The notes under the pieces: generated by a model
What the model was told of the DNA's origin: nothing
The model's input: the letters and a program-made list of their open reading frames with translations, nothing else
Databases searched by the model: none
Shown here: positions 26,953 to 58,470 of the stretch, in pieces
Numbering within the stretch: the stretch's first letter is position 1
Layout of the letters: each line of letters opens with the position of its first letter
Translations under genes and position numbers: made by a program
Source of the DNA: an uncultured Lachnospiraceae bacterium
Lineage (GTDB): Bacteria; Bacillota; Clostridia; Lachnospirales; Lachnospiraceae
DNA length: 64,000 nt
Direction of reading: 5' to 3'
Assembly: GCA_946405625.1 (NCBI GenBank)
Contig: CAMJHQ010000001.1
Location: forward strand, 62,001-126,000

Positions 26953-27336
26953 AAAAAAAGAGCAGAACGATAAGCCGGGTTATGTCGTTGGGTAATCATC
27001 TATCTAGGGACTGTGTTGCCACAGAACTCAAGCGACCTACCATGAACCTGACACCTTGCGGCATCTGACGGGCAGCCAATAGCTCAAATATGGTCTTGCT
27101 TCGGATGGGGTTTACAATGCCATGCCTGTTACCAGCCATGCGGTGAGCTCTTACCTCGCCATTTCACCCTTACCACAACAGACGAGCTGAAGTGGCGGTA
27201 TACTTTCTGCTGCACTTTCCTTGGAGTCACCTCCACCGGACGTTATCCGGCATCCTGCCCTGTGAAGCCCGGACTTTCCTCACCTTTGCTTCAGCCGAAG
27301 CTGAAAGCAAAGCCGCGATTACCTGTCCTGCTCTTC
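26953..27336 (-). ncRNA. rnpB: RNase P RNA, bacterial class A
   Basis: Catalytic RNA that trims tRNA 5' ends. On the minus strand the conserved P4 halves are seen: GAGGAAAGTCCGGGCT near the 5' side and CATAACCCGGCTTATCG near the 3' end. AGAGCAG and CTGCTCT form helix P1 at the two ends, and the GGTAAGGGTGAAATGGCGAG core and ACAGGCATGG-type segments are also present. The RNA ends in a T-tract (26953-26959 complement). It is about 384 nt long and convergent with the kinase gene. Confidence 0.95.
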
Positions 27337-46909: not shown

Positions 46910-46937
46910 TTTACAAATAAGTGTGTTACAATATGAT
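46910..46937 (+). promoter_or_regulatory. candidate promoter of the tubulin-like gene
   Basis: TTTACA (46910-46915), 16-base spacer, TATGAT (46932-46937). An inverted repeat TTGTA-N8-TACAA (46891-46908) sits just upstream of the -35. Confidence 0.45.
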
Positions 46938-46970
46938 TTAGTGTTATTTAGTTGCACGAGGAGAAGTCAA

Positions 46971-49481
46971 ATGATACTTATAGACACACAAAAAGAAGAG
47001 TTTAACAAACTGAAGCATGTACGAATTTTCAGTAAGGTTGAGAATGAGAACCGCTTCAATGGCGATCTTCTTGTAATAGGACTCGGCGGCGTCGGCGGAA
47101 AAGTGGTAACGGCACTTAAACGTATGATGATGGGAAATATCAGCCGCGAGGACAATATCAGTTTTCTTCTGATGGATTCAGATATTCCAGCAATGGAAGC
47201 GACAATTAAGGATAGTAAAGAAGGTTATGGTCTTAATGCGCTTGAAGTGCTCAGTATTTACAGACCAAATCTCGGAGATATCCTTACAAGAGGTTTCAAC
47301 AGCATGCCTGTTCAGGAGTCCCTGGCTAAGTGGATGAGTCCTGATTTTCCGAGGATTTCAATCGGAACTACAGGTGCCGAAGGAAACAGACAGATAGGAA
47401 GACTCATGTTTTCAAACGCTTACGAAGACATGAGGATTTTGCTTTTTGAAAAGCTTGAAGAGCTTTACAGTAAATCAAAGGGCGGTAAGCTGGATGTAAT
47501 CATCGTTTCGAGTACAGCCGGCGGAACCGGAAGCGGTATTATCGCTGATGTAACATATAATATCAAAGCATACGGAAAGTCCAGAAGATGGACTGATTTT
47601 CGTGTCGGCGGATGTCTTATTACGCCGGATGCGCTTTTTGCAAACAAGTCTATTTATGAAAATGAAGATAAGAGAACATTGCTTCTCGCAAATTCACATG
47701 CAACACTTGAAGAACTGAGTCAGTTTATGCAGATTGCATATACAGGTGAGAGCTATAATTTCGAAAGCACAACTCACAGACTTACAATGAAAGAGAATAT
47801 CTTCGATGCATGCATGCTTGTTTCCGGAAAGAAGGATGAACAGGGATATATCCCGGAGCATGTCATTTTCAATGATGTTGCGTATTTCCTTCAGAAGCTT
47901 GCAATCAACAAATATATAGATGATTCCGATAAGAACGGAAATCGTATGCTTATCAGAGATTCGTTCTTTGAAACAAGCAGCGTCGGTCTGTTCAAGGTTG
48001 TTAATGAATCTGATTATAAGATTCCTATCCGTGAGATTGAGAATATCTGCGAACAGGATGTATACAGCCGTGCCGAGAAGAAGCTTAATGAAATGCCGGA
48101 GAAGGATGAGAACATCAAGAAGGATGTGGATGATACCTTCGGAGAGCTTAAAACATTTTTTGCGGGTGAACCGGGCGATGAGATAAATCTCAGCGTTAAC
48201 GGACTTATAAAGGTCGGACAGTATTCCAAGCAGCCTTACAAGCTTATCAAGAAGGGAACGGATGATTTCAGTACCATTCTTCAGAAACAGCTTGAGACCA
48301 TTAAGACAGATATACCTGTAATTGTTAAGTCCATAAGAATCAAGCTTACGTCAACGCTTGACGGACATATAGATAAATATCTGAGACAGTTTGGTCCTTT
48401 TGTCACAATGAAGATGATAGGAGCCAGAAACATAGGTGGATGTGAAGAGGACGGAGGAATGATCCAGGAGGTAAAATCTCTTGAAACGGCCCTCAGTAAT
48501 TACAGTCCTTTCAGCGAGTTTGAAAGAATAAGGGAATCTATTCTCGCAATTGTAAAGAAGAGATTCTTTACCTTCCCAAGTGCCAAGAGGGAAACCGAAA
48601 ACGGTTATTATGAGGCCAGCATCAAGGATGCTCTTGCGAAGGAAAGAAATATGCTGATGGAGGAAATGAACCGTCAGGATGTTCTGGGTGATATAGTCCG
48701 TCAGTTAAGACATAGAGCTGAACAGATGGAAGATATCTATTCGCAGTTCGGAGTTGACCTTAATTCTGCAATCAACGGCCTTGCAAGTGACGGTAAGAGA
48801 ATCGTCGGATTTATGATGAAGCAGGCAAAGCGTACCGAATTCCTTCCAAAGGATTATATTACTGACGAGAAAGTGGATCAGATGAAGTCGGGACTTATCA
48901 ATTTCATGGTAAGCCATGAGAGTGATCTTGATAATGACAGACTGGTTCCGGTAAGTCAGGAGATGGAAAGAATATATAAGAACTTCCTCAACGGAATCGG
49001 AGTATATGCTCCGGAGAAACTTATATATAATGCATTTGCGGATGAGCAGCCAACTATGTCGGAATGCAATTTCGTATTTGTGGGTAAGGATAACGATCTT
49101 CGCCGTGCAACCATGAAGAAGGCTGCAAAGGCATTTGTAGACGGGGCATTTGAGAAGACAAAGAAGAAGAAGCTCTGCGAGCTTGTTCCGGGATTTGAGA
49201 ATCAGGTTCTTAACAAGAAGTTTATTTCGCTTCCGGAATCAATGCCATTCTTCAGTCAGGCCGTTAAGGAAATCCTGATAGGAGCACCGTACAATGAAGA
49301 TCCGGACTCTATCACAATGAACCCGGGTGAGCTTCAGATTTCAGTAGATAATTTCTTTATGGGAATACGTCCTTCAATGCTTGCTTGTGCCGAGGAAATG
49401 AAGGCGGCATATGATAAGGTGACAAGTGGAGGAAACTATTTCGGACTTCATGCGGATGAGTCCCCTAAACCGAAAGCATAA
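46971..49481 (+). CDS. tubulin/FtsZ-like GTPase domain protein
   Basis: Large cytoplasmic protein of 836 residues with an N-terminal tubulin-like GTPase (Tubulin_2-type). Residues about 29-45 hold the glycine-rich VIGLGGVGGKVV, and the tubulin signature STAGGTGSG is at 181-189. SIGTTGAEGNRQIG and GGCLITPDALF fit the same fold. The remaining about 450 residues are mostly helical and not recognised. ATG 46971 is chosen since GAGGAG precedes it. It stands alone between its own promoter candidate and a strong terminator. It could be a cytoskeletal polymer, but polymerisation is not shown by sequence. Confidence 0.8.
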   Translation: MILIDTQKEEFNKLKHVRIFSKVENENRFNGDLLVIGLGGVGGKVVTALKRMMMGNISREDNISFLLMDSDIPAMEATIKDSKEGYGLNALEVLSIYRPNLGDILTRGFNSMPVQESLAKWMSPDFPRISIGTTGAEGNRQIGRLMFSNAYEDMRILLFEKLEELYSKSKGGKLDVIIVSSTAGGTGSGIIADVTYNIKAYGKSRRWTDFRVGGCLITPDALFANKSIYENEDKRTLLLANSHATLEELSQFMQIAYTGESYNFESTTHRLTMKENIFDACMLVSGKKDEQGYIPEHVIFNDVAYFLQKLAINKYIDDSDKNGNRMLIRDSFFETSSVGLFKVVNESDYKIPIREIENICEQDVYSRAEKKLNEMPEKDENIKKDVDDTFGELKTFFAGEPGDEINLSVNGLIKVGQYSKQPYKLIKKGTDDFSTILQKQLETIKTDIPVIVKSIRIKLTSTLDGHIDKYLRQFGPFVTMKMIGARNIGGCEEDGGMIQEVKSLETALSNYSPFSEFERIRESILAIVKKRFFTFPSAKRETENGYYEASIKDALAKERNMLMEEMNRQDVLGDIVRQLRHRAEQMEDIYSQFGVDLNSAINGLASDGKRIVGFMMKQAKRTEFLPKDYITDEKVDQMKSGLINFMVSHESDLDNDRLVPVSQEMERIYKNFLNGIGVYAPEKLIYNAFADEQPTMSECNFVFVGKDNDLRRATMKKAAKAFVDGAFEKTKKKKLCELVPGFENQVLNKKFISLPESMPFFSQAVKEILIGAPYNEDPDSITMNPGELQISVDNFFMGIRPSMLACAEEMKAAYDKVTSGGNYFGLHADESPKPKA

Positions 49482-50621: not shown

Positions 50622-50656
50622 CGGGCCGGGGAATGACATGTTCCCCGGTCTTTTTT
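50622..50656 (+). terminator. rho-independent terminator of fba
   Basis: CCGGGGAA (50626-50633) pairs with TTCCCCGG (50641-50648), then a T-run at 50651-50656. Confidence 0.9.
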
Positions 50657-50665
50657 CGTATATTT

Positions 50666-50694
50666 TTGTGGTATTATAGCCTATTTTATAGTAA
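50666..50694 (+). promoter_or_regulatory. weak promoter candidate for the SMC operon
   Basis: TTGTGG (50666-50671), 17-base spacer, TAGTAA. If used, the first gene would have a leader of under ten bases and no ribosome site. Confidence 0.25.
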
Positions 50695-50707
50695 AATAAA
50701 ACGGATT

Positions 50708-52213
50708 ATGGAAAAGTATATTCTGACAAATGACATAATTAAAAATCATACGGAAAGAATGTTGAATCTCAGGAAATTTTATCCGTTTTTCAGCATACTT
50801 GAGTCAGGGATAAGTGCGCCCTCTGAGAGCGGCAGCACTTCGCTTGATATGGGCTACATCACCCTTGCGGTTTTGAGATTTCTGATAAACGAGAATAACT
50901 TCAATGAACGCGAGGTTACGAGTCAGGAGATCAGGAAATTCATTGCGGAACTGCTCACAAGAGATTTTGAACTGTCGCTTTCGAAAGGCGATATGGAGTC
51001 TCTGACCGAGAACATTTTCGACAAGCTTACAAACGGCGGGAGAGCCTTTGAGATCAGTTTCTTTGATCCGGCGGACAGAAAGACGAAAGTGATCAGAGTA
51101 AGGCTGATCGAGGCGAATGTACGTGAGGCTGAGGTTACCTATAGTATTACCGAAGAGGGAATAGAGTTTTATCTTTCAACGAAGGAGATGAAAGATGAAA
51201 GCAGGATCAGTACAGATCAGCTGCTTCTTGAAAAACTGATCAAGGCGGAAAACTATTCCGGCGGTATTGATGTTATAAGCCGCATTAATCTTGAAGTGTC
51301 TTCTCTTCATAAGAAGCGTGATGAAGCGGTAGCCCTGCTTCTTTCGGATGTCCATGCCGGTACCGTGGCTGTGGATGAGTTTATGGAGAGTACTTCGAAA
51401 TGGTTTGAGGAGGAAAGAAAGTCCTTCACAAAGAGCCGTGAGCTGGTTGATAAGGCTGCGGCAAGAATGGACAGGAGTTCCGGGGGAAAAGCGGTAAGAG
51501 ATATAACAAGACTCGAAACACTTCTTAAGCAGGCTATTGACAATCATAGCAGACTTATCAAGGCGTCGGCCGAGTTATCAAGGTTTGCGGACGAAATGGT
51601 AAGCCGTAAGAAGATGCAGATCCTCAGGAATACATTTGATTTTGAAGAGGCACTGAGTTCACTTGAGAGAATAGATAAACCTGACAGACTTGCGGCACTT
51701 ATAAGTCCGCTGCTTACGCCGAAATGTGAGAAGAGCTTCCAGATATCCATGATAGATTCTATCGTCCTGAAGAAGATAAATCAGGATGATATGGCAGAGA
51801 AGGTTGAGAAGGAAGCGGCTGATCTGAATTTCAGGTATGAAGATGAGATACTCTCCGAACAGACCGGTAAAAACTTTGCACTGCTCTTCAGGGAACTGCT
51901 GGAAAGACTTGAAAAGTGGGAAAAGCTCACGCTTCGTGAATATAATGCGATTCTTGAAATGAAGTTTACCGGAGACATTTATAAGAACAGAGATTACTTC
52001 GCGTATCTGGTACATTTATCAGAGAAAGACAGCTACAGTATAAGGAGCATGATCGATCAGCAGGAAACATTCCTGGAGGAACTGGCTGTCAAGTATATGT
52101 CAGATGCGGATCTGGAAAGATTTTCGGATATAAGATTCCGGATAGTTTTCGGAGACGAAGAGGTGGAGATTGAGGATTCATCCGTTACGGATATAACATT
52201 TGAGAGGATGTAG
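50708..52213 (+). CDS. jetA: JetA-like protein of a Wadjet/MksB-type SMC operon
   Basis: Probable kleisin-like subunit of an SMC complex, matching DUF5716/JetA-type proteins of type II Wadjet systems (recognised from memory). 502 residues, largely helical. N-terminus YILTNDIIKNHTERMLNLRKFYPFFSILESG is followed by a wing-like region (about 60-175), then long helices and a coiled coil (225-290). The ATG at 50708 is chosen because the longer ORF (from 50633) runs through the fba terminator. There is no clear ribosome site. The jetB gene follows 2 bases after the stop. Confidence 0.72.
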   Translation: MEKYILTNDIIKNHTERMLNLRKFYPFFSILESGISAPSESGSTSLDMGYITLAVLRFLINENNFNEREVTSQEIRKFIAELLTRDFELSLSKGDMESLTENIFDKLTNGGRAFEISFFDPADRKTKVIRVRLIEANVREAEVTYSITEEGIEFYLSTKEMKDESRISTDQLLLEKLIKAENYSGGIDVISRINLEVSSLHKKRDEAVALLLSDVHAGTVAVDEFMESTSKWFEEERKSFTKSRELVDKAAARMDRSSGGKAVRDITRLETLLKQAIDNHSRLIKASAELSRFADEMVSRKKMQILRNTFDFEEALSSLERIDKPDRLAALISPLLTPKCEKSFQISMIDSIVLKKINQDDMAEKVEKEAADLNFRYEDEILSEQTGKNFALLFRELLERLEKWEKLTLREYNAILEMKFTGDIYKNRDYFAYLVHLSEKDSYSIRSMIDQQETFLEELAVKYMSDADLERFSDIRFRIVFGDEEVEIEDSSVTDITFERM

Positions 52214-52215
52214 AG

Positions 52216-52926
52216 ATGGAGGACAGAAGTCTGAACAAAGCGCTGGATATATACAGTGCACTTATAACCGGGCAGAGCATATCTCTAAAGGATAAGGCAA
52301 CGGCGGAACTCTATAATGAGTTCTATGCGGATTCTGAGGTTTATGACATAACTACGAAGATACTTGCCAGGCAGGGACTTTCAATCTATGAATATAACGA
52401 ATCGCTGTTTGTGACAGCGGGAAGCGGTAACAAGGTATTCGGTTATACGAACGATGAATTGAAGCGTATACTCGGCCTCAGGCTGAATGTAGAGCTTTAT
52501 CTGGTGTTCTTTATAACTTATCATGCACTTCTGTATTTCTACAAATCTTCGGATACCTATCAGGTAAGGGAGTATGTGAGAGTTGACGAGGTGATAAACA
52601 GCGTGAACGATGATCTCAGGAAAATCCTTGGGGATGCGGCAATAGCTGAAGACCATAATGAGAACAGCTTTAAGTCGATAGCTTCACTCTGGGAAGGACT
52701 TCCTCCGTTTCTGAATGAGGACAGGGATCGTAACAAGGCATCCCGTGGTTCAAGATACGGAATGACAAAGCTTACTTTCAACTTCCTTATTGCCGAGAAG
52801 CTTTTTGTAAATGTGGACGATCGCTTCTATCCGACGGACAGGATGCATGCACTGGCAGAGAATTATTTTGAGGAAAACAGGAGCCTGATCAGAGAATATC
52901 TCGAGCAGGAAAAGGACAATGCCTAA
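52216..52926 (+). CDS. jetB: JetB-like protein (DUF6063-type) of the SMC operon
   Basis: Probable accessory winged-helix (KITE-like) subunit. 236 residues. Features seen: SLNKALDIYSALITGQ at the N-terminus, FFITYHALLYFYKSSDTYQVREYV in the middle, and a C-terminal RYGMTKLTFNFLIAEKLFVNVDDRFYPTDRM segment that reads as a winged helix. The start is 2 bases after jetA with GAGAGGATG upstream, and the end overlaps jetC by 8 bases. Position, size and neighbours match the JetB slot between JetA and JetC. Confidence 0.72.
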   Translation: MEDRSLNKALDIYSALITGQSISLKDKATAELYNEFYADSEVYDITTKILARQGLSIYEYNESLFVTAGSGNKVFGYTNDELKRILGLRLNVELYLVFFITYHALLYFYKSSDTYQVREYVRVDEVINSVNDDLRKILGDAAIAEDHNENSFKSIASLWEGLPPFLNEDRDRNKASRGSRYGMTKLTFNFLIAEKLFVNVDDRFYPTDRMHALAENYFEENRSLIREYLEQEKDNA

Positions 52927-55900: not shown

Positions 55901-57370
55901 GATAAAGAAGTTGAATGGGCAAGGCTTGAAGAAAAAGCCAAGTCAGGACAACTCTTTAAAACTCCGGAGCAGGAACTCGGAAGTATCGAGGCTGATATAA
56001 TGAAGCTCTCGGAGGATTATAAAGTCAAGGCTGAGCAGCATTCGGCTGTGAAAACGGACTTTGAAAGGATCATGGGAAAGCTCGAGTATGCAGAGAAGGC
56101 ACTTCATGATAAGTATGGTGAAGATATAGAACTTCCTCAGAATCTGGATCATGATAAGGAACTTCTCAGAAGACAGCAGGAGCTTACGGAACTCGAATCG
56201 AAGATTTCGGAGGCTGATAAGAAGCTTAAGAGTTTCAGAAGAAGAGTAAATGACAGCGAAGAGCTTATGCGTTATGCGGGACGTATAACCGAGAAGGAAG
56301 CTATAGATACATCGGGAGCGGAAATACTCGGACAGGACAGGGATCTGAGAGTGATGTTTGATGATCTCCTGCTTGATTATGACAGAATTAATAAGAAAAT
56401 AGATCGTATCAAGAATGATACACTTAAGGTTAAAATGATGGTCGTCGATTCTCTTCAGACAGTTGGAGCTTTCCAGCTGGCGAATTCTGTAAGAGATGAA
56501 GTCGAGCTTCCGTCAACCAGAAGAGAAGCGGATGAACTTCTTAAGAAGCTTAACTCTGAGGCCGAGCTTATCACTCTCGAGAAGGAAAGGATAGAGACCG
56601 GACTTACAAGTATGGAGAAGCTGCGTGAGAGTTTCATCGATCAGTGTATAGAGAGATGTCTGGATGTTAAGACGGAACTCGGAAAGCTGCAGCATTTATC
56701 TGAGATAACTCTCGGAGATGAAGATATAGAAATGATCAAGCTGTCGATTCCTTATGTAAAGGATGAATTTATGAAAGACAGAATGTCAGACTATATCGAC
56801 AGGATAGTTGCCGAGCTTGATAAGAAAGCATCAGAAAGTGAGAGACAGAAGTTCCTGAATCAGAGTCTTTCGATGAAGAAGCTTTTCAGTGTTATCGTAA
56901 CCGATATGAACCGTATCAAGCTTTCGCTTTATAAGAGAGAGCGAATCAAGGAGCAGAGCAGATATCTGAAGTATGAAGAGGCTGTCGGAAGTACGGGACA
57001 GTCACAGGGTATTTACATACAGTTCCTGATCTCTGTTATAAATTATATTTCGGGAATGTACTCTTCGGGTGATGGTCAGAAGAGAACCAAAACACTCTTT
57101 ATTGATAACCCGTTCGGAGCAGCGAAGGATATATATATCTGGGAGCCGATATTCAGACTTCTTCAGGAAAACTTCGTACAGCTTGTGGTTCCGACTCGAG
57201 GCGCCACTCCGGAGATTACAGGAAGATTTGATATTAATTATATACTCGGACAGCAGAAAACAGGAAAACGCTCGACAACAGTTGTTGTTAATTACAGCAG
57301 CAAGACTGATACAGAAGAACTTGAATATATCCAGCTGGATTATGAACAACAGACTTTCGATTTTGTCTAA
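52919..57370 (+). CDS. jetC: SMC/MukB-like ATPase, JetC-like
   Basis: DNA-loop-extruding type ATPase; 1483 residues. The N-terminal half-ATPase has Walker A ANGGGKS at 38-44. Two long coiled-coil arms (about 320-640 and 760-1240) flank a hinge-like globular part at about 660-750. The C-terminal half-ATPase has a signature-like STGQSQGIYIQ at about 1358 and Walker B TLFIDNPFG with Asp1396 and Asn1397. Related to JetC, MukB and MksB. The gene overlaps jetB by 8 bases. No JetD/Toprim nuclease gene follows. Confidence 0.82.
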   Translation: MPNINRIRVNNVKYNFGTQSYDDFIMKMYGRNTLYDLANGGGKSVLMLLLMQCVIPNSTLDDKQPIEKLFRGNDNTCIHSLIEWKLDDCDITEGLRYMTTGFAAKKAGGGKDADQVTIEGVQTEEVSADDEKTTAEIEYFNYCIFYRDYNKNDIINLPLIKGEERITYKGLKNYLLDLARTDKNIIVKVFDRKGEYQRFIADYGLYESQWELIRGINRTEGHVRTYFETNFRTTRKVIEDLLIEEIIEKAYAVKTAAASGNAGNTASLLMTIQEELKTLAEKKKRIADYDHEKELVQLLADRIGTFEELFREKEKTARGFAAIYRTIETEKKNADEELAKLEQELEELSNGSDRINHEIQQLKIEITKKERDEAEKRAALLGEELEKIEALISDRRKDLNERIAAGEYIDLLDAREKLAALENERRAAENAQDGKVDKGCIAYNIRLRMEEKAAEITGKEQKISNHIHKLSEERDSIERLRDAAVQNLAVIESKLQDRDEKFAECRRKTEELGEGLSERKLLPPRELLDEASRKKVKTKADIERLTVEESRVSAELQQLTQEKNQLEQKEAILKENEAGFKLNIDKQREEAGRLKSLAGIYGMNDDYSGDSKSVEKLAELIQSAIRKDYIRVHETGKAAELSEKRLKDIEMGVVLKRSEDIEKVREYIITRHSHSAITGIDYLSALGSEKRAELLKVNPSLPYGIIVEDLAAVTDDPGLREIETSTEVMLYDKENLDSAHNIIGENVFAVRRGSDYFTDEETVNRLKNLETENLRNLNEEKRAVQDMLATKQADLAFTEIYIGKGYDTLEERIKENEKQLRAVEDSLLEAEERERRLLSEKEEFEGKLNSCEAELKLTDADIVILREMAEIAEEERHLTRDTAELKASKDSTEQALSSNEMKLRKISSEMADLEAMNSQLRDERREMDFNWDKKYSVYYTDTVRPDLNMSLAELASLFDRQAADGEGEVFSREKEKLLRDTLSDSVRRLEKSIEDKEVEWARLEEKAKSGQLFKTPEQELGSIEADIMKLSEDYKVKAEQHSAVKTDFERIMGKLEYAEKALHDKYGEDIELPQNLDHDKELLRRQQELTELESKISEADKKLKSFRRRVNDSEELMRYAGRITEKEAIDTSGAEILGQDRDLRVMFDDLLLDYDRINKKIDRIKNDTLKVKMMVVDSLQTVGAFQLANSVRDEVELPSTRREADELLKKLNSEAELITLEKERIETGLTSMEKLRESFIDQCIERCLDVKTELGKLQHLSEITLGDEDIEMIKLSIPYVKDEFMKDRMSDYIDRIVAELDKKASESERQKFLNQSLSMKKLFSVIVTDMNRIKLSLYKRERIKEQSRYLKYEEAVGSTGQSQGIYIQFLISVINYISGMYSSGDGQKRTKTLFIDNPFGAAKDIYIWEPIFRLLQENFVQLVVPTRGATPEITGRFDINYILGQQKTGKRSTTVVVNYSSKTDTEELEYIQLDYEQQTFDFV

Positions 57371-57375
57371 GATAA

Positions 57376-57530
57376 GCGGTGAAATACATATGCTTTCCTG
57401 CTTGCAGGAAAAAGCATATGTATTACCACCGCAAGAAAGCATGAGGATGGAGCGATTTGTGTAAGCAAATCAGCGGAATCCGAATGCTTTCAGGATTGCG
57501 GGAGCAGCGAAGCTGCGCAGCAATCCGTAT
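57376..57530. repeat. cluster of palindromes after jetC
   Basis: A 57-base near-perfect hairpin at 57376-57432 (GCGGT/ACCGC; AATACATATGCTTT/AAAGCATATGTATT; CCTG/CAGG, loop CTTG) is followed by GATTTG/CAAATC. A third hairpin, GGATTGC/GCAATCC, encloses GCAGC-GAA-GCTGC (to about 57527). There is no coding potential in 57371-57618. It could be a terminator plus a MITE- or REP-like element. Confidence 0.6.
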
Positions 57531-57618
57531 ATCTTAGACATAGATATAAAGCAATAACCCAGCCACTAAAGCAATCCACAACCTGGAAAAGAATAGATCA
57601 CACTCCCGGAGGATTTCT

Positions 57619-58470
57619 ATGTACATTATCGATTCCAAAACAATAGTCACGCCTCAAAACGGACTGAATATATATCGTGGACGTACCGAGTCGAGCATTA
57701 TCAGTATGGAACCGGAGATAACGGATATAGGTGTGAAGCCGGAAGCCGATATTCTTCTTGCGGGCACGCTTAAGAAGCGTAAGAGTAAGGGAATGATACT
57801 TGCGGGCAACATGGGTGATCCCTATAACGACCTTGAGAAGGAATACGGACTCATGCGTAAGAGTCTCAGGTATATCAGCTTCTATGATTTCGGAATAGTG
57901 ATCACGACAAGAAGAGAACTGCTTCTCAGAGATATTGATCTTCTGAAAGAGATAAACAGGAAGACCAAGGCGGTTGTAGAGATACCGATTCCGTCGATAG
58001 AGATAGAAAAACTTAAACTGATAGACGGAGGCAGCCTCGGAGAGAGGATTGCACTTATGGAGAGCCTTTCAAAGGAAGAAATTCCTTTTATCATAAATAT
58101 TTATCCGCTGGTGCCGTATGTTAATGATGATCCTGTAGTATTGAAGAGTATGCTCGGAGTACTGCAGTCATATAAGCCTGCGGCAATAGATCTCGGTGGG
58201 GCAAAAATACCGCTTATCAAAAAGCAGATGGATTTCTTCTATCTTGAATATCAGAAGAGATTTCCAGAAGAATACGGCAAGTATATTGATGTGCACGGAC
58301 GTTCAAAGGAAATTATAATTGATTCCGAGATTGAACTTCGTGACGAAGTGAGACGTACGGCAACAAAGATAGGGGCACTCTGGAGTCCACCTGAAATTCT
58401 TGACTGGAAGAGAAAATACGAGAACAAACAGATGGGCGATCAGATCACATTTGACTTTGGGACAGAGTAG
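57619..58470 (+). CDS. radical SAM-fold protein (SPL-like family) lacking the Fe-S cysteines
   Basis: Homologue of the spore-photoproduct-lyase-like radical SAM family. 283 residues, normal length. Family landmarks: DSKTIVTP, NIYRG at 17-21, AGNMGDPYNDLEKEYGLMRK, RDIDLLKEINRKTKAVV and YPLVPYVNDDP. In active members NIYRG is followed by C-x3-C-x2-C; here those positions are Arg22, Ser26 and Ser29, and there is no replacement cluster. The frame is intact and has a GGAGGA site, so it is not an obvious pseudogene. It may bind nucleic acid or nucleotide without radical chemistry. It follows the SMC operon by 248 bases. Confidence 0.8.
   Translation: MYIIDSKTIVTPQNGLNIYRGRTESSIISMEPEITDIGVKPEADILLAGTLKKRKSKGMILAGNMGDPYNDLEKEYGLMRKSLRYISFYDFGIVITTRRELLLRDIDLLKEINRKTKAVVEIPIPSIEIEKLKLIDGGSLGERIALMESLSKEEIPFIINIYPLVPYVNDDPVVLKSMLGVLQSYKPAAIDLGGAKIPLIKKQMDFFYLEYQKRFPEEYGKYIDVHGRSKEIIIDSEIELRDEVRRTATKIGALWSPPEILDWKRKYENKQMGDQITFDFGTE

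Follow-up and report, generated by a model that had tools for sequence, protein, structure and literature searches.

Spore photoproduct lyase (SPL) is a radical-based DNA-repair enzyme. The SPL of Bacillus subtilis becomes inactive after the loss of any one of its three cysteines, according to the available part of PMC3742179, and in HemW-like proteins and CgdH2 of Campylobacter jejuni the radical SAM fold is found in chaperone use (PMC10320005, available part). Among SMC complexes, MksBEF of Pseudomonas aeruginosa is thought to be one that lacks JetD and has been vertically kept, as stated in the portion of PMC10586767 that was accessible. Within openly licensed literature, partly available as excerpts, we found no described radical SAM homologue that has lost its cluster motif and is under strong selection, and no paper in which spore photoproduct lyase and Wadjet are named together. 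Here we describe a gene predicted to encode an SPL-fold protein behind a JetABC operon in a 64,000-nt stretch of DNA (the window) from an uncultured Lachnospiraceae bacterium (Table 1). The product and its orthologues are called SPLx, and the window's genome G000.

Table 1. Features of the SPLx locus, in positions of the window.
Feature	Position	Strand	Basis
JetA (kleisin-like), type III	50633..52213	+	PADLOC PDLC00560, E 2e-172
JetB (KITE-like), type III	52216..52926	+	PADLOC PDLC00571, E 1.2e-86
JetC (SMC-like), type III, 1483 aa	52919..57370	+	PADLOC PDLC00581, 1471 bits, whole length
Clostridiales-1 RNA (RF01699) between jetC and SPLx	57368..57536	+	cmscan 130.1 bits, gathering score 48
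SPLx, cysteine-free protein with predicted SPL fold, 283 aa	57619..58470	+	ORF, profiles, AF2 model, Foldseek
Codon 22, CGT, Arg; first cluster-Cys position	57682..57684	+	Arg in 31/56 orthologues
Codon 26, AGC, Ser; second cluster-Cys position	57694..57696	+	Cys in 20/56 orthologues
Codon 29, AGT, Ser; third cluster-Cys position	57703..57705	+	Cys in 6/56 orthologues
D67-P68-Y69 core motif	57817..57825	+	56/56 SPLx; 37-38 of 38 canonical proteins
C-terminal signature R265-x-Y-x-N-x3-G-x-Q275 of JetC-linked SPL proteins	58411..58443	+	conservation counts

The SPLx gene of the window starts with ATG, has no internal stops, and its product contains not a single cysteine. The conserved NIYRG occupies residues 17-21, followed by R22, S26 and S29 where C-x3-C-x2-C would be expected, a register confirmed by an intact paralogue of the same genome (L002, from here on type B) that reads NIYRG-C-SHG-C-IY-C. 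An earlier, sequence-only reading of this DNA had picked out the three substitutions, the intact frame and several well-kept stretches of the fold, all of which are present in the gene. Its best NCBIfam match, NF033668 (E 8e-18), reached 64.6 bits where the cut-off is 360, a value that the intact homologues likewise miss (119-161 bits). Pfam Radical_SAM (PF04055) gave 24.5 bits, under the cut-off of 29.5; one of three further SPLx passed it (39.5) and two did not, while the intact homologues passed in three of three. A search of the PDB by sequence gave no useful match. An alignment with 28 relatives served as input for the AF2 model, which was confident (pLDDT 89.9, pTM 0.88), and Foldseek placed SPL at the top of the PDB (4fhc; E 4.7e-7, TM 0.66, 14% identity), with SPL entries in ranks 1-6 and radical SAM enzymes in all of ranks 1-12. 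By this model SPLx has the SPL (radical SAM) fold.

A search for SPLx homologues matched 59 of the 61 genomes of the window's genus-level group, which includes Eubacterium ruminantium and uncultured Lachnospiraceae from the rumen and other gut sites. The protein was read in 56 of them, the window's genome and isolates included; outside the cysteine count were G011 and G051 (no match), G033 and G060 (type B only) and G052 (fragments only). Cys22 is missing in all 56 (the window protein and 55 orthologues), none has the full motif and none retains more than one of the three cluster cysteines, with C26 alone in 20, C29 alone in six and no cluster cysteine in 30. The change for which homologues were to be sought is thus the rule in the group, and the idea of a single odd genome was rejected. 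Residue 22 is Arg in 31 proteins, Ser in 10, Ala in five, Val in five, Gly in four and Ile in one. It had been pointed out that each of the three substituted codons is one base away from Cys, and this is true for the window. However, the 31 Arg22 residues make use of all six Arg codons and only eight of these 31 codons are one step from Cys, so that the one-base distance in the window is no sign of a recent loss; rather, the loss is old and Arg22 looks kept by selection. One could still imagine that SPLx is radical or redox active, with a cluster or metal bound through other residues or a partner, since one of the three cysteines is left in 26 of the 56 orthologues and several core positions of SAM enzymes are kept. 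Against a window protein that is cysteine-free, a first cysteine gone throughout and two other positions that drift to Leu, Ser, Asn, His and Thr, we find such residual chemistry very improbable.

The dN/dS between the window SPLx and its nearest relative was 0.036, a rough value given a dS of 1.33. In a set of 35 of the 56 sequences, from which pairs with a dS under 1.6 are listed, 26 of the 28 listed pairs fell at 0.015-0.23 and two distant pairs reached 0.51 and 0.65. SPLx looks to be under purifying selection in the sequences covered. Among the columns that SPLx shares with canonical proteins are G63, D67-P68-Y69, E73, R80, G92, T97, R104-D105-x-D107, P163, P166, N169 and Q275; those lost in SPLx include, besides the cysteines, Y28, D30, R32, Y36, S107, N184, G199 and G212 (numbering of the linked intact protein L107), and T11, P12, Q13, D90 and R214 are among the positions fixed in SPLx and variable in canonical proteins. 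Identity to the window protein is 33-46% for most SPLx, a faster divergence than that of the type B proteins (77-95% identical to the one of the window's genome), and this could be taken as a sign of decay. However, the same state in 56 genomes, isolates among them, together with the low dN/dS refutes both a decaying gene and a sequencing error, to which we attach practically no probability. The sequence-only reading had itself named what would speak against it, either close relatives with intact cysteines and a dN/dS near 1 or an error in these codons; neither was found, and its proposal of a retained protein that is not a usual radical SAM enzyme is well supported by the group-wide loss, the dN/dS and the predicted fold. 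With the catalytic residues lost and the protein conserved, SPLx would, as far as its sequence tells, qualify as a pseudoenzyme.

The three Jet proteins are matched almost end to end by the PADLOC type III models, and JetC was detected in 54 of the 61 group genomes. In all 50 fetched loci with jetC, SPLx lies directly 3' of it on the same strand, with gaps of 6-210 nt. Counting the window, where the gap is 248 nt, the order JetA-JetB-JetC and then SPLx holds at 51 of 51 loci in which the downstream gene is visible (in G033, G052 and G060 jetC is at a contig end and the next gene is out of view). Conservation of the adjoining operon, and with it the suspected link to the SMC genes upstream, therefore stands as far as gene order goes. 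Two observations count against reading SPLx as an accessory of JetABC. One is the RNA gene between jetC and SPLx in the window, where the 248-nt gap has a folding z of -8.3; RF01699 occurs also in the nearest relative (L003 2391-2559, 120 bits) and is absent from nine of the 10 other loci scanned. The other is a relative, G130 (L100), in which SPLx is missing from the same JetABC locus. A sample of 391 genomes of the class contained 11 with JetC (E up to 1e-60), and an adjoining SPL match was seen only in the window's own genome and in G239, so that no such neighbours were seen outside the family and the arrangement is a local one. A mobile or phage gene was rejected, as no relative of SPLx was found on viral contigs and a plasmid search gave only three matches, 28-32% identical, all on records that are non-mobilizable and 0.24-2.6 Mb long. 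Elsewhere in the window, a tubulin-like protein (PF13809, E 7.8e-66; 46923-49481, + strand) is encoded upstream of a fructose-bisphosphate-aldolase-like gene and JetABC, and L033 and L075 have such a protein close to the locus as well; an RNase P class A RNA (RF00010, 307 bits) lies at 26955-27334 on the - strand.

Sister lineages of the group also carry a jetC-linked SPL gene, and there the three cysteines are intact in eight of eight cases: G239 (L096), G100 (L098), G189 (L107) and five further genomes (L192-L196). Among 58 named loci, cysteines were read in L191-L196 and L202, the last taken as the contig of L098, and the rest were assumed to be group genomes already read. The motif is also complete in the 20 unlinked SPL genes that were read, chosen from more than 100 SPL places, and in type B in all 30 group genomes where it was found. 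In a tree of 94 proteins, built with the cluster columns removed and including 10 of the 30 type B sequences, the 56 SPLx fall on one side of a single branch (bootstrap 96, SH-aLRT 90, recovered in 94% of 200 bootstrap trees) and the space between SPLx and the unlinked genes is taken by the linked intact ones, arranged as a grade. Two long branches, L068 and L075, join each other in the tree, and their placement is unsure. One change at Cys22 and three each at C26 and C29 are needed on this tree. Because the linked genes of the sister lineages have all three cysteines, linkage to jetC probably preceded their loss. If the root is among the unlinked genes, the simplest history would be linkage to jetC, a single loss of Cys22 and then drift at the site. 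On these data the loss is no local accident: it is old and extends over the whole clade.

JetD is the component missing from this setting. The window's genome has no PF09983 match, and its JetABC is thus not a complete Wadjet. Ten of the 61 group genomes do have JetD, in separate operons in the five neighbourhoods that were read, where the SMC-like protein is shorter (1043-1131 aa). In genomes of other genera JetD was beside the same JetC type in none of 36, although 13 of these have a JetD match, always on another contig; as a positive control, JetD was found near six more distant JetC copies (G131, G352, G238, G170, G211 and G233). It could be argued that in a defence system SPLx took over from JetD as effector subunit, since it is the only additional gene to remain with a JetABC that has no JetD. 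However, the same JetD-less JetABC has no adjoining SPL gene at 33 of the 36 loci of other genera, from which it follows that JetD was lost independently of SPLx. The fold is SPL-like and SPLx persists in genomes without detected JetC (see below), and we give this replacement very little credence. By analogy with MksBEF the JetABC found here looks like a vertically kept SMC complex that does without JetD. A role as the sole chromosomal condensin is ruled out, since the window's genome also encodes Smc (1105 bits) and ScpB. At 10 of the 36 loci, all from other Lachnospiraceae genera (L087, L088, L090, L092, L093, L094, L097, L101, L105 and L117), JetABC lies behind a gene of RecR size, confirmed as RecR by Pfam in L087 only. 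A large protein often follows the JetD-less JetABC, with TPR repeats in L101 and none in L087. These surroundings look more like those of a housekeeping complex than of a defence system.

Whether gene order reflects a working partnership is a different matter, and here the suspected link to the SMC operon did not hold up as well. SPLx is kept in five genomes (G003, G017, G036, G037 and G059, 88-100% complete) in which JetC was not detected, and its pN/pS is 0.09-0.27 in the four of them that were compared. A mirror-tree comparison over the 33 loci holding all seven genes gave partial correlations with SPLx of -0.03 for JetA, -0.07 for JetB and 0.29 for JetC (4 of 999 permutations were as high), as compared to 0.71 and 0.61 inside JetABC. 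The raw correlations with SPLx were 0.92 for JetC, 0.92 for a neighbour of 681 aa and 0.90 for malic enzyme. SPLx tracks unrelated neighbours no less closely than it does JetC, and its co-evolution with JetABC is weak. These results are what one would expect if SPLx had a non-radical role independent of JetABC, in which it might bind DNA lesions or some other ligand or dock to the sliding clamp, and owed its place to inherited gene order.

The C-terminal tail bears on this alternative in both directions. The pentapeptide that binds the clamp is QL[S/D]LF in the accessible portion of PMC12309361, and the tail resembles it, with a strict-like motif (QL[S/D]LF or QxxLF type) in 27 of the 56 SPLx and in 10 of 10 type B proteins. 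The tail of the window protein, QITFDF, does not match the strict motif. DnaN is therefore one candidate partner and JetABC the other. In the AF2 model residues 271-283 have block-mean pLDDT values of 59 and 48. The signature R-x-Y-x-N-x3-G-x-Q, on the other hand, is special to the linked genes: it is found in 56 of 56 SPLx, in eight of eight linked intact proteins and in none of the 30 unlinked ones tested. It is, by these counts, a property of the JetC-linked lineage that has outlasted the cluster motif. This signature and a linkage to jetC that extends from all assessable loci of the group through the sister lineages speak against a role apart from JetABC, which we take as a serious candidate that we doubt rather more than we believe.

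That SPLx works without radical chemistry follows from the loss of Cys22, and presumably of the cluster, in a protein whose fold, motifs and signature are kept under selection, and we hold it to be highly probable. What it would do is more tentative. The reading that we put forward, believing it almost as readily as doubting it, is that SPLx is a retained non-radical pseudoenzyme of the SPL fold, which probably serves a JetABC SMC complex devoid of JetD as an accessory for DNA binding or docking. Its ancestor would have been a JetC-linked SPL-like radical SAM protein with its cysteines in place. The ancestor of the group lost Cys22, as the residue history records, and with it would have lost the [4Fe-4S] cluster; the remaining two cysteines were lost in different lineages, while purifying selection seems to have held the fold, the core motifs and the C-terminal signature. 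The old substrate face of SPL would bind DNA, the flexible tail would dock to a partner, and SPLx would be made together with the JetD-less JetABC. The partnership with JetABC is unproven; SPLx persists in the five genomes in which JetC was not detected, and its co-evolution with JetABC is weak. A bolder version, which we consider rather unlikely, is that an enzyme acting on DNA lesions was captured by a clade-specific SMC complex without JetD and made into a non-catalytic subunit or loader, in which the SPL fold reads the DNA or its lesion and recruits the motor. If this were true, the group would hold the whole series, from linked cysteine-bearing proteins through one-cysteine intermediates to cysteine-free ones. 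In any case, a natural series is available that runs from intact relatives with the linkage to forms with one cysteine and forms with none, and with it the role of an SPL fold without radicals and that of the JetD-less JetABC in Bacillota become testable. Annotations should also be taken with caution, as the labels "radical SAM protein" and "Wadjet" would each miss that a defining feature is absent.

Compared to its closest relatives and to known systems, SPLx shares its fold family with type B, to which it is 33-34% identical and which has a similar Q-[LM]-S-x tail, but type B has kept the cysteine motif, does not adjoin a jetC of this type and evolves more slowly. In G039 (L229, 4893-12883) a Wadjet-type operon with JetD and an SMC-like protein of 1071 aa lies directly 5' of an intact type B gene, a second SPL-Wadjet neighbourhood that was seen once. 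CgdH2 of Campylobacter jejuni (Cj0363c) retains the cysteine motif, according to the available text of PMC10320005, whereas SPLx is without it. With Wadjet type III (JetABCD) the locus has JetA3, JetB3 and JetC3 in common, matched over nearly their whole length; unlike that system it has no JetD, and in this group an SPL-fold gene lies downstream instead. MksBEF differs from the JetABC found here in its SMC type, and we know of no SPL-fold partner for it. Finally, SPL (4fhc) and the PA0069 and Rv2578c radical SAM families (NF033668, NF038135) share with SPLx the predicted fold and the core motifs G/DPY/E, T, RD-x-D and P-x2-P-x2-N, whereas SPLx lacks the cluster cysteines, scores far under the family cut-offs, is linked to jetC and carries a C-terminal signature of its own.
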